46,580 nt of DNA from Acidobacteriota bacterium (lineage in GTDB: Bacteria > Acidobacteriota > Vicinamibacteria > Vicinamibacterales > UBA2999), in assembly GCA_016789705.1 (NCBI GenBank), contig JAEUQR010000140.1:1-46580 (forward strand), written 5' to 3'. Below, one piece after another: positions 3,874 through 28,851 of this stretch (position 1 is the stretch's first letter; every line of letters begins with the position of its first letter). The notes below the pieces were generated by a model. That model did no database searches. It had not been told where the DNA came from and saw only the letters and a list, made by a program, of their open reading frames with translations. Made by a program: the position numbers and the translations under genes.

Positions 3874-5871
3874 ATGGAACGTTCACGGACGAGCGTGCGC
3901 CTGTCGCTCGCGACAGGCCTGATGGTGGCAGGACTAGCGGCGAGTGTGGCCGCGCAGCGAGCGGCGGCTCCGGCGCCGGCGCCCGCGCCGACGCCCGCAG
4001 GGCAGTGGCGGACGTACGGCGGCGATCTCGCCAGCACGCGGTATTCGCCCCTCGAGCAGATCAACGCCTCGAACTTCGGCTCGCTGCGCATCGCCTGGCG
4101 CTTCCGCACCGACAACTTCGGCCCGCGCCCGGAGATCTCGCTCCAGGCCACCCCGCTCTACGCCAATGGCGCGCTGTATGCGGCCGTGGGTACCAGGCGC
4201 GCGGCGGTGAGTCTCGACCCGGCCAACGGGGAGCTGCTCTGGGCGAAGCGCTTCGACGAGCGTCCGCGGACCTTCCCGCGCGGTCTCTCGGGCCGCGGCG
4301 TGGCGTACTGGGAATCGGGCGCCATGAAGCGTGTGTTCATGGTCTCGCCGGGCTACCAGATGCTTTCGATCGACGCCACGACCGGCCAGCTCGATCCCGC
4401 CTTCGGCGCCAAAGGCGTCGTCGACATGCGCCGGCTGCTCGGCTACCCGGTGGAAGACGTCGAGAAGGCCGAGATTGGCCTCCACTCGGCGCCCATCGTC
4501 GCAAACGGCGTCATCATCGTGGGCTCGGCCCACCTCGCCGGCGGCGCGCCGCCGACCAAGGAACACATCAAGGGCGTCGTGATGGGCTTCGATGCCCGCA
4601 CCGGCAAGAAGCTCTGGGGCTTCACGGCCATCCCGGGTCACGGCCAGAAGGGCAACGAGACCTGGCTGAACGAGTCGTGGACCTACACGGGCAACGCCGG
4701 GTCGTGGGCGCAGATGTCGGCCGACGAGGCATTGAATCTTGTCTACGTGCCCGTCGAGGCACCGACCGGCGACTACTACGGCGGGCACCGCCCGGGGAAC
4801 AATCTCTACTCGAGCGGCATCGTCGCCCTCGACATCAAGACCGGCACGATGAAGTGGGCGTTCCAGACCACACACCACGACATCTGGGACTGGGACATGC
4901 CGAGTGCGCCCATCCTGGCCGACATCACCGTGGACGGCAGGGCGATCAAGGCCGTGGCCGTGCCCACCAAGCAGAACTACCTCTACGTCTTCGACCGGAC
5001 GAACGGCTCGCCCGTGTGGCCGATCGTCGAGACGGCCGTGCCCAAGGGCGATCTGCCCGGCGAGTGGTACGCGCCCACGCAGCCGATCCCGAGCAAGCCG
5101 CCGGCCTTCGGCCGTCAGGGCGTCAAGGAGGAAGACCTGCTCGACTTCACGCCCGAGTTGAACGCCAAGGCGAAGGAGTTCGTGAAGGGCTGGCGGATGG
5201 GCAGCATGTGGGAGCCGCCGTCCGAACTGAATCCGGCGGCGGGGAAGATGGGCACGCTGCAGCTGCCCGGGTCGACCGGCGGCCCGAACTGGCAGGGCGG
5301 TTCGATCGATCCGGAATCGAACATCGTCTACATCTACTCGAAGGACGAAGCGACGGCGCTCTCCATGGTGCGCGACCCCAAGCGCTCGAACATGGACTGG
5401 ATCAACGGCGCGGGTGGGGAAGGCGGCCGCCGGCTGGCCATCGACAACCTGCCGATCATCCGTCCGCCCTGGGCCACCATCTCGGCCATCGATCTCAACA
5501 AGGGCGAGATCGTGTGGCAGACCGTGCACGGCGAAACCGACGACGCCGTGAAGAACAACCCGGCGCTCAAGGGCGTGACGATTCCGCGCACGGGCCGCCC
5601 CGGCCGTATTGGCGTGCTCACGACCAAGTCACTCGTCATGGCCGGTGATGCCGGCATGGCGACGCACCCGAACGGGCAGCGGAGCGGCATGTTCCGCGCC
5701 TATGACAAGAAGACCGGCAAGGAACTGGGCGCCGTGCCGCTGCCGGGGCCGCAGACCGGCTCGCCGATGACCTACATGCACGAAGGCAAGCAGTACATCG
5801 TCGTGGCCGTGGCCGGCCAGGGCGCCGCCGCCGAGCTCATCGGCCTGGCGCTGCCCGACGCGCCGAAGTAA
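3874..5871 (+). CDS. PQQ-dependent dehydrogenase (quinoprotein, periplasmic)
   Basis: The 665-aa protein has a Sec signal peptide (about residues 1-27, cleavage after AAQ) followed by an Ala-Pro linker, so the enzyme acts in the periplasm. The rest is an eight-bladed quinoprotein propeller. The start motif WRTYGGDLASTRYSPLEQIN is typical, and propeller docking motifs recur (FDARTGKKLW, LDIKTGTMKW, IDLNKGEIVW). The segment HHDIWDWDMPSAP corresponds to the region carrying the catalytic Asp of PQQ glucose/alcohol dehydrogenases. No CxxCH haem motif is present, so electrons must go to a separate acceptor. The substrate cannot be read from sequence; membrane-type glucose dehydrogenase and polyol dehydrogenases are the nearest relatives by motif. 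Start: ATG with an AG-rich GGGGGA 3 nt upstream. A strong terminator follows. Confidence 0.9.
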   Translation: MERSRTSVRLSLATGLMVAGLAASVAAQRAAAPAPAPAPTPAGQWRTYGGDLASTRYSPLEQINASNFGSLRIAWRFRTDNFGPRPEISLQATPLYANGALYAAVGTRRAAVSLDPANGELLWAKRFDERPRTFPRGLSGRGVAYWESGAMKRVFMVSPGYQMLSIDATTGQLDPAFGAKGVVDMRRLLGYPVEDVEKAEIGLHSAPIVANGVIIVGSAHLAGGAPPTKEHIKGVVMGFDARTGKKLWGFTAIPGHGQKGNETWLNESWTYTGNAGSWAQMSADEALNLVYVPVEAPTGDYYGGHRPGNNLYSSGIVALDIKTGTMKWAFQTTHHDIWDWDMPSAPILADITVDGRAIKAVAVPTKQNYLYVFDRTNGSPVWPIVETAVPKGDLPGEWYAPTQPIPSKPPAFGRQGVKEEDLLDFTPELNAKAKEFVKGWRMGSMWEPPSELNPAAGKMGTLQLPGSTGGPNWQGGSIDPESNIVYIYSKDEATALSMVRDPKRSNMDWINGAGGEGGRRLAIDNLPIIRPPWATISAIDLNKGEIVWQTVHGETDDAVKNNPALKGVTIPRTGRPGRIGVLTTKSLVMAGDAGMATHPNGQRSGMFRAYDKKTGKELGAVPLPGPQTGSPMTYMHEGKQYIVVAVAGQGAAAELIGLALPDAPK

Positions 5872-5893: not shown

Positions 5894-5927
5894 CGGGACG
5901 TCTTCCACGCGGAGGGCGTCCCGTTTT
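5894..5927 (+). terminator. Strong intrinsic terminator of the PQQ dehydrogenase gene
   Basis: An almost uninterrupted 13-bp stem (outer arms CGGGACG 5894-5900 and CGTCCCG 5917-5923, inner arms CTTCC and GGAGG, a few G-T wobbles) closes a 4-nt ACGC loop and is followed directly by TTTT. It begins 22 nt after the stop codon. Confidence 0.85.
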
Positions 5928-6250
5928 CGTGTACGAGCAATCCTCTGGAGGGCGCCGGCGATGGGGTGTCCCCCTGCCGGTCCCGGCTCCGCAGGCCGTC
6001 ACCCGACTTGCGGGGGCGAGTGTCGGCGGAAGCGTGGGGCCCCCGGCGGTGGTGCGCGACGCGCTGCACGCGTCGCCGCTGTGCCTGAACACCCCACGCG
6101 GACTTCGGCGCCTCCTCGTCGTGTGACGTCTTACGCTTGCGCGGCCCGCTGCGCAGGGCCCGTCAGAGGGACACCCCATCGCCGGCGCTTCGCCACGAGG
6201 GCGTCAGCACGTCGGTACGGCCGGTGACATTCGTCAGGCGATGCGACGTT
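5928..6250. repeat. Gene-free region with large nested inverted repeat (5952-6188)
   Basis: No credible gene lies between the PQQ dehydrogenase terminator and the convergent small membrane protein gene. The region holds a 21-bp perfect inverted repeat, GCGCCGGCGATGGGGTGTCC plus C at 5952-5972, with its complement at 6168-6188. Inside it are two more concentric inverted pairs: CGTGGGG 6033-6039 with CCCCACG 6092-6098, and GCGACGCG 6056-6063 with CGCGTCGC 6069-6076 around a 5-nt loop. All three pairs share a centre near 6066-6070, so one strand could fold into a single long imperfect hairpin. This resembles a non-autonomous mobile element (MITE) or a structured intergenic repeat. I see no clear target-site duplication and no transposase. 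Confidence 0.6.
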
Positions 6251-6490
6251 TCAGCCGCCGCTGCGAGCCCCGAGCACCTCCACGGCCACTGCCAGCACCT
6301 TCACCAGGTAGACGGCGCTCACGCCTGCGGCCAGCCAGACCAGCGGCGCCCGGCGGGGAGGGGACGCAGGTCCCGTCTCGGCTGGCCGTGGCGTCAGTCG
6401 CCTGCGAGCCAGCGCTCTCGCACGCGTCGCGCGCACCGGGGATGGATCGGCGTCAGGCAGCGCCGCGAGGCGCTCCAGCAGATCGTTCAT
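6251..6490 (-). CDS. Small single-span membrane protein, possible anti-sigma partner
   Basis: This 79-aa protein has a charged, Arg-rich N-terminal half (MNDLLERLAALPDADPSPVR and following) and one predicted membrane helix at about residues 49-72. Its start overlaps the end of the ECF sigma gene by 4 nt, so the two are translationally coupled. A short cytoplasmic region followed by one membrane span, directly after an ECF sigma gene, is the layout of minimal anti-sigma factors. However, no zinc-binding HxxxCxxC motif is present, so that role is inferred from context. No homologue is recognised. Confidence 0.65.
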   Translation of the reverse strand: MNDLLERLAALPDADPSPVRATRARALARRRLTPRPAETGPASPPRRAPLVWLAAGVSAVYLVKVLAVAVEVLGARSGG

Positions 6491-7074
6491 GGTTCGACCT
6501 CCTGCCAGACGGCGGCGTTCTTCGCCACGTCACGGTCGAGTGCGCGCGCGAGTGCTTCCCGCGCTCGGTGCAGACGCTGGCGCAGGGCCTGAGGCGTGAT
6601 GCCACAGACAACTGCTGCGTCTGCCGGTTCAAGTCCTGCGACGCCGACGAGCAGCAGCACCTCGCGTGCCGCCAGCGGCAGCGTCGCGATGGCGCGTTCC
6701 AGGCGGCGTTCGAGTTCGTGGCCGGCCGTTTCTTCGAACGGCGATGTGCGAGGCGCGTGATACGGCCAGAGTCCCATCAATCCCGCCGCCGTCGAGTCCT
6801 CGAGCAGGCGCGAACGCACGTAGCTCACATGGAGGTTGCGCGCCACGGTGAAGAGCCAGGGGCCGAGTCGCGTCTCCGGCTGCAGGCGGGGGGCGTGACG
6901 CACGAGGCGCATCCAGACCTCGTCCAGCAGGTCTTCGGCGGCATCACGCCGGCGGGCGAGGCGCAGCAGGAACGTGAACAGCCGCCTGTTGAACGCGGCG
7001 TGGACGGCGTCGAACGCGTCGGCGTCGCCGGCCCGCAGGCGCTCAACGAGTGTCAGTTCGGTCTCTCGGTCCAC
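6487..7074 (-). CDS. ECF-type RNA polymerase sigma factor
   Basis: This 195-aa protein is a sigma-70-family factor of the extracytoplasmic-function type. Region 2 (about residues 10-75) includes DAFDAVHAAFNRRLFTFLLR, AAEDLLDEVWMRL and the -10 recognition helix near GPWLFTVARNLHVSYVR. Region 4 (about 135-185) has LPLAAREVLLLVGVAGLEPA and the helix-turn-helix GITPQALRQRLHRAREAL. There is no sigma region 1 or 3, as expected. It starts at a GTG (7072-7074) and is divergent from a membrane protein gene, with a perfect palindrome between them. The next gene encodes a small membrane protein that may control it. The signal and target promoters are unknown. Confidence 0.92.
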   Translation of the reverse strand: MDRETELTLVERLRAGDADAFDAVHAAFNRRLFTFLLRLARRRDAAEDLLDEVWMRLVRHAPRLQPETRLGPWLFTVARNLHVSYVRSRLLEDSTAAGLMGLWPYHAPRTSPFEETAGHELERRLERAIATLPLAAREVLLLVGVAGLEPADAAVVCGITPQALRQRLHRAREALARALDRDVAKNAAVWQEVEP

Positions 7075-28773: not shown

Positions 28774-28851
28774 CGGGATGTAGCGCAGCCTGGCTAGCGC
28801 GCCTGCTTGGGGTGCAGGAGGTCCCGGGTTCGAATCCCGGCATCCCGACCA
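28774..28851 (+). tRNA. tRNA-Pro (anticodon GGG)
   Basis: This 78-nt sequence folds as a complete tRNA. The acceptor arm pairs CGGGATG with CATCCCG, followed by A73 and an encoded CCA. The anticodon arm is CCTGC-TTGGGGT-GCAGG, giving anticodon GGG (reads CCC and CCU). The T arm is CCGGG-TTCGAAT-CCCGG, and the D arm is GCGC with a 10-nt loop. CCA is present in the DNA. Confidence 0.95.

Follow-up and report, generated by a model that had tools for sequence, protein, structure and literature searches.

A multicopy folded element of Vicinamibacterales as a candidate boundary of exchangeable gene cassettes

Introduction

The window analysed here, a 46.6-kb stretch of DNA from an Acidobacteriota genome of the order Vicinamibacterales, carries a 237-bp palindromic sequence in a gap without genes. 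In the initial annotation it was put forward as a possible MITE, repeated palindromic unit or structured RNA, which raises the question of what this sequence is and whether it belongs to any known type of mobile element. By definition, a classical MITE has terminal repeats common to its copies and a duplication of its target. As discussed below, the element is not a classical MITE, not an attC site and not a known RNA. With about an even chance, in our estimate, it is a solo copy of a family of non-autonomous elements that are recognised by their fold and form the boundaries of exchangeable gene cassettes. It is well supported that a folded element family exists and that its copies pair inward; the recombination mechanism is one that we infer. 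The element bears on the open questions of where mobile gene cassettes originate and by what route they come to lie outside integrons.

The window copy and its site

The whole element (5952-6188, + strand, oriented so that its core reads GCAGGCC..GAACACCCC..GCT-C) is bounded by perfect 21-bp inverted arms, 5952-5972 being the reverse complement of 6168-6188 at 21/21 positions, exactly as first annotated. This is the sole perfect 21-mer inverted repeat with arms less than 300 nt apart in the window, and 8e-5 such pairs are expected at the window's base composition. Extended to 5952-5998 and 6142-6188, the arms match at 85%. The 237-bp region folds into one long imperfect hairpin of -167.9 kcal/mol, versus -137.0 +/- 5.3 kcal/mol for its shuffles (z -5.88; 0/200 as low), and the covariance model match to this copy spans 5955-6190 with 206.8 bits.

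The left outer stem arm (5952-5986, +), which begins with the 21 bp of the perfect repeat, has a locus-specific sequence. The right outer arm (6159-6188, +) is self-complementary to it and lies on the cargo side in paired copies. Between them, a conserved core of ~170 nt (5987-6158, +) is exchanged between loci. It contains a near-invariant GGGGCCCC (6036-6043, +) at the base of the apical part, an apical hairpin (6048-6086, +) that varies in length and sequence and is missing in divergent order-level relatives, and the most conserved block GAACACCCCACGCGGACTTCGGCGCC (6087-6112, +).

The element sits in a gene-free gap of 380 bp between convergent genes, in agreement with the initial annotation. 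Upstream, a PQQ-dehydrogenase-like gene (by inspection; 3874-5871, +) has its stop 81 bp before the element start. Downstream, a convergent ORF of 79 aa, inferred by reading the sequence (6251-6490, -), ends at 6251, next to a sigma-factor-like gene (6487-7074). A hairpin at 5894-5926 (+) is an ordinary terminator-like structure of the upstream gene, separate from the element and also found in species that lack it. Among the Rfam 15 covariance models, none matches the element, either at its gathering score or with E relaxed to as much as 5; a tRNA gene at 28774-28848 is the sole Rfam match in the window.

On re-inspection, too, no target duplication is visible at the window copy, which is solo and has no partner element. 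In the orthologous gap of congener G004 the element is absent, and in that of G003 the outer arms alone are found as a 15-bp palindrome, GACGCCGGCGATGGGG-CCG-CCCCGTCGCCGGCGC, with a 3-nt loop, as expected from a deletion between two CCCC runs. The idea that the stem is a pre-existing target palindrome was rejected, since the 3-nt loop of this remnant fits the CCCC-repeat deletion and other empty sites have no such palindrome.

Copies and distribution

A BLASTN search of the element's own genome assembly (G000; 5.03 Mb, 199 contigs) retrieved about 14 further places with 74-86% identity, which makes 14-15 copies in G000. Among 40 relatives searched with BLASTN, four congeners have 15, 13, 7 and 2 copies, and outside these four only short matches were found. 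A single copy without covariation, which would have refuted the initial annotation, is thus not what is observed: the element is multicopy, polymorphic for presence and absence and strongly covarying, which supports its reading as a repeated palindromic, mobile-looking unit. Not anticipated in that annotation, most other copies are without the outer-arm sequence of the window copy, and the common part is the interior, 5987-6158. The name MITE holds only loosely, as the element is short, non-coding and multicopy, whereas its terminal arms differ by locus and its core is conserved.

An exact search with the 26-base most conserved block matched, in the genome collection, only Acidobacteria MAGs of the genus and contig L124, which is labelled 'actinobacterium', carries a locus of the window's genus and is probably misbinned. 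No copy was found on plasmids, phages or viral contigs. A covariance model (R1) run on 162 genomes of the order matched 16 of them, which represent 12 of the 86 genera and belong to seven families (f1, f3, f4, f5, f6, f11, f12), including a +/- pair of elements 3.1 kb apart in another family of the order. The distant copies are ~195 nt long, without the apical hairpin, and retain GCAGGCC, GCGTGGGGCCCC...CCCCACGCGGA-TTCGG and CGCGGCCTGCTCC. About half of the copies are solo, many of these without cargo. Copies lie mostly 40-110 bp downstream of a stop codon. Five copies at different loci (L057, L064, L051, L052 (4255) and L017 (1748)) have an extra module of ~48 nt, CACCCCACGACGC..GTCCGCGTCGCGGGGGCCCCGG, between the left stem and the core.

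Conserved fold and strand

The sequences show a multicopy family with a covarying fold across the order, and inward pairs around low-GC cargo. The outer stem of ~35 bp varies in sequence by locus, yet it is self-complementary in nearly every copy. In an alignment of 41 copies with 62 base pairs (A1), double changes occur in 41/62 pairs and 346 cells are changed on both sides, versus 105 in shuffles that do not retain the relatedness of the copies; against the same kind of control, covariation is 0.366 versus 0.100. Pairing is observed in 93% of the cells, versus at most 53% in slid-partner controls. The inner helices covary too, e.g. columns 56-179 (A-U 19, C-G 19, G-C 2). The covariation supports the 'structured' part of the initial annotation. 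The arms of a palindrome can correct one another via template switching without selection, and the shuffles ignore relatedness; a conserved fold is more safely deduced from the inner helices and from the copies found at the level of the order.

The outer-stem mismatches comprise 50 A.C, which are wobble pairs on the minus strand, versus 11 G.U, which are wobble pairs on the plus strand (26 vs 6 copies; 16 vs 3 loci). The consensus fold is more stable on the minus strand (-117.4) than on the plus strand (-104.4). As single-copy folding energies show no significant strand preference, the strand assignment rests on the mismatch counts and the consensus energy, which suggest that it is the minus strand that folds into the functional molecule, be it RNA or single-stranded DNA.

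Inward-facing pairs and their cargo

All on-contig pairs (11/11) are oriented + then -, 0.4-3 kb apart, so that each core has its 3' side turned towards the cargo; the further pairs G000:C60/C12 and G004:C294/C283 are interrupted by contig ends. The enclosed islets have a GC content of 0.609, versus 0.693 in their flanks, and the value is lower in 11/11 (p=0.001). Inward-facing pairs repeatedly enclose small blocks of low-GC foreign genes. The cargo, in which there are defence-like genes and enzymes, includes an N6_N4 DNA methylase with an Mrr-like domain, TIR_2, FRG, HATPase/histidine kinase, methyltransferase, bPH_1, NUDIX, glyoxalase, L-PSP and many unknown proteins.

In a hand-made scan of 32.8 kb of islets, clear canonical attC sites were present in two islets only (G004:C283 and G003:C327), so integron arrays alone do not account for the islets; the scan of the 46.6-kb window gave none. 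Islet G001:C29 contains a stretch resembling the intI-attI leader and, as judged by eye, a degenerate hairpin similar to attC. Next to the right arms of several elements (L012 1-400, L058 1-140, L009 1822-1890 and L053) lie the remnant of an IS110-like transposase, recognised by eye, and a common GTTAGGCGGAAGTGTCTAC motif. Except for this remnant, no recombinase or transposase was found inside the islets read, and none was tied to the element.

Turnover at loci

The same locus holds different cargo in different species, with presence/absence variation and deletion remnants. Locus b is empty in G002, with genes about 30 bp apart, and has a solo element with an internal deletion in G001; its cargo is a 219-aa ORF in G000, FRG and others in G004, and a 238-aa ORF in L124. 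In G003:C304 (L186), this locus has a toxin-antitoxin-like pair (by eye), an attC R'' half and a short arm remnant, with no core. At the G003:C146 locus, the element is solo in G003 and double, with differing cargo, in G000 and G001. Neither exact excision nor target duplication was seen, and empty sites diverge beyond the element itself.

One identical islet appears to be present at two loci with its breakpoints in the elements. The islets of L124 and of G004:C66, a different locus, have 0 mismatches over 1,226 bp, and the right flank of L124 belongs to a locus other than that of G004:C66, with 89-92% identity to its orthologues in G000, G003 and G004. Mismatches are confined to the left core and, in the right element, to the vicinity of the border between core and left arm, which places the probable breakpoints inside the elements. 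No other single finding hints as strongly that cassettes move between element-marked loci; L124 is a metagenomic contig, and a chimeric join at the repeat might be the cause as well, as it would look identical.

Stems are locus-specific and cores interchangeable. Stem identity is 0.75 between same-locus orthologues versus 0.51 otherwise, and core identity is 0.840 between orthologues versus 0.839 between paralogues of the same genome, which implies that the stem stays while the core, and the cargo with it, changes. At G000:C196, the cores of the two bookends are 0.93 alike and their stems 0.38. G000:C87 and G003:C19 have the same locus and stem with the core inverted (L013 2102-2270 vs L069 2317-2485), a difference between two species that fits an inversion within the palindrome. 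The homogenisation of cores could be ordinary gene conversion. Stem families without a core were rejected as separate repeats: matches to the commonest arm with 0-1 mismatch lie in or beside elements or at sites later recognised as element loci, and those with 3 mismatches are near the control level.

Proposed mechanism

In the proposed explanation, paired elements with inward cores would delimit small cassettes of foreign genes as 'bookends', and intergenic sites marked by an element would be the landing spots where one cassette replaces another. A trans-acting factor would recognise the folded element, probably in the strand complementary to the one presented here, and recombine it, and the ~170-nt cores might double as homology for RecA exchange. 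Since neighbouring stem arms are direct repeats when stems match, solo copies such as that of the window may be leftovers after loss of the cargo and one bookend. The element may be the end piece or the landing site of a gene-swapping system described in no database. A conserved fold is found at either border of small foreign islets, and it remains once the cargo is lost. Together, the covariance model and the inward pairs provide a searchable signature for unknown cassettes, defence genes included, and the element is a concrete substrate for finding the enzyme.

Another possibility, which we hold to be a tentative one, might be a second, integron-like system, in which dispersed inward folded sites, recognised by strand-specific structure, load, swap and unload single-gene cassettes across the order. 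Its recombinase would be an as yet unnamed one or the integron's own, and its cassettes, defence and metabolic, would pass between chromosomal loci.

Alternative explanations

The exchange of cores without stems and the breakpoints inside elements might also result from repeat-driven homologous recombination only, in which RecA swaps the DNA between old dispersed repeats and no enzyme recognises the fold; the solo core inverted in the same stem would then be an inversion between palindromic arms. However, the order-wide fold conservation with double changes in helices and the inward facing of every pair are left unexplained, and we consider this reading rather unlikely. Strong covariation, conserved unpaired motifs, the position past a stop codon and the minus-strand bias in wobble pairs and consensus stability would all suit a host gene for a structured RNA, or a host 3'-UTR element, whose link to the cargo is secondary. 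Such an RNA is unlikely, as neither presence/absence variation, truncated copies and 0-15 copies among related genomes nor the repeated inward pairing around foreign genes is expected of it.

An origin from integrons, with the element as a variant attC or attG on which the resident integron integrase acts, would be in line with the occurrence of IntI above the cut-off in G001, G003 and G004 and split in G000 (none in G002), with canonical attC in two islets versus none in the window, with the cargo on the 3' side and with the wobble bias to one strand. Yet this origin is very unlikely: IntI is only mildly associated with the element (11/16 carriers versus 53/146 other genomes of the order, p=0.015, or p=0.06 when each genus is represented by a single genome), it was not found in five element-bearing genomes (G002, G064, G081, G089 and G118), R and L boxes (RYYYAAC / GTTRRRY) are not found at the expected hairpin base of the aligned element, and the second copy is inverted, not direct. 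As for an ordinary MITE moved by a transposase that recognises terminal inverted repeats (as TIME or IMU), the element is short, non-coding and multicopy with terminal repeats, and its pairs around cargo resemble TIME-COMPs (PMC13367494; PMC4133298). Terminal repeats that are 0.51 identical between loci around a conserved interior are the reverse of a MITE, however, and with no target duplication visible, no autonomous parent found and no such transposase in the islets read, this reading is highly improbable.

Comparison with known systems

TIMEs are MITEs defined by a shared Tn3-type terminal repeat, and TIME-COMPs bracket passenger genes. Like these and integron mobilization units, the element is about 240-290 bp, non-coding and non-autonomous, and two copies bracket passenger genes. 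In contrast to TIMEs, its termini vary by locus, its folded core is conserved across the order, and its pairs are seen inward only, on chromosomes, with none found on plasmids. With attC it has in common an imperfect hairpin, a conserved structure, a variable stem, cargo of similar types placed on one side and a possible strand preference; unlike attC, it is without R/L boxes, about 240 nt long, chromosomally dispersed and with an inverted second copy, and no integrase is attached. The attG sites of Loot et al. 2024, as cited in PMC12901181, reportedly serve cassette insertion into genomes outside the integron. As far as that description goes, both concern cassettes at chromosomal sites outside the integron; by description, not by sequence, the element differs as a large conserved fold that is present without cargo too and is paired and inverted.

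The element further resembles REPIN/RAYT systems as a dispersed intergenic hairpin in genomes that also encode Y1 transposases, but it differs in size and in having a conserved core. A RAYT/REP reading was rejected, as no copy lies near the Y1_Tnp genes. These genes are RAYT-like, number one or two per genome and have their own palindromes, e.g. GGGGCCTGTCCCGGGACAGGCCCC (L189-L194). A group II intron or retroelement was rejected too, RVT_1 being found in only 1/5 congeners. An inverse-type chromosomal integron, with intI, an attI-like site and, downstream, a cassette array in which the contigs break, was observed at L142 1-1813 (G003:C315), L141 1-1156, L143 and L144.
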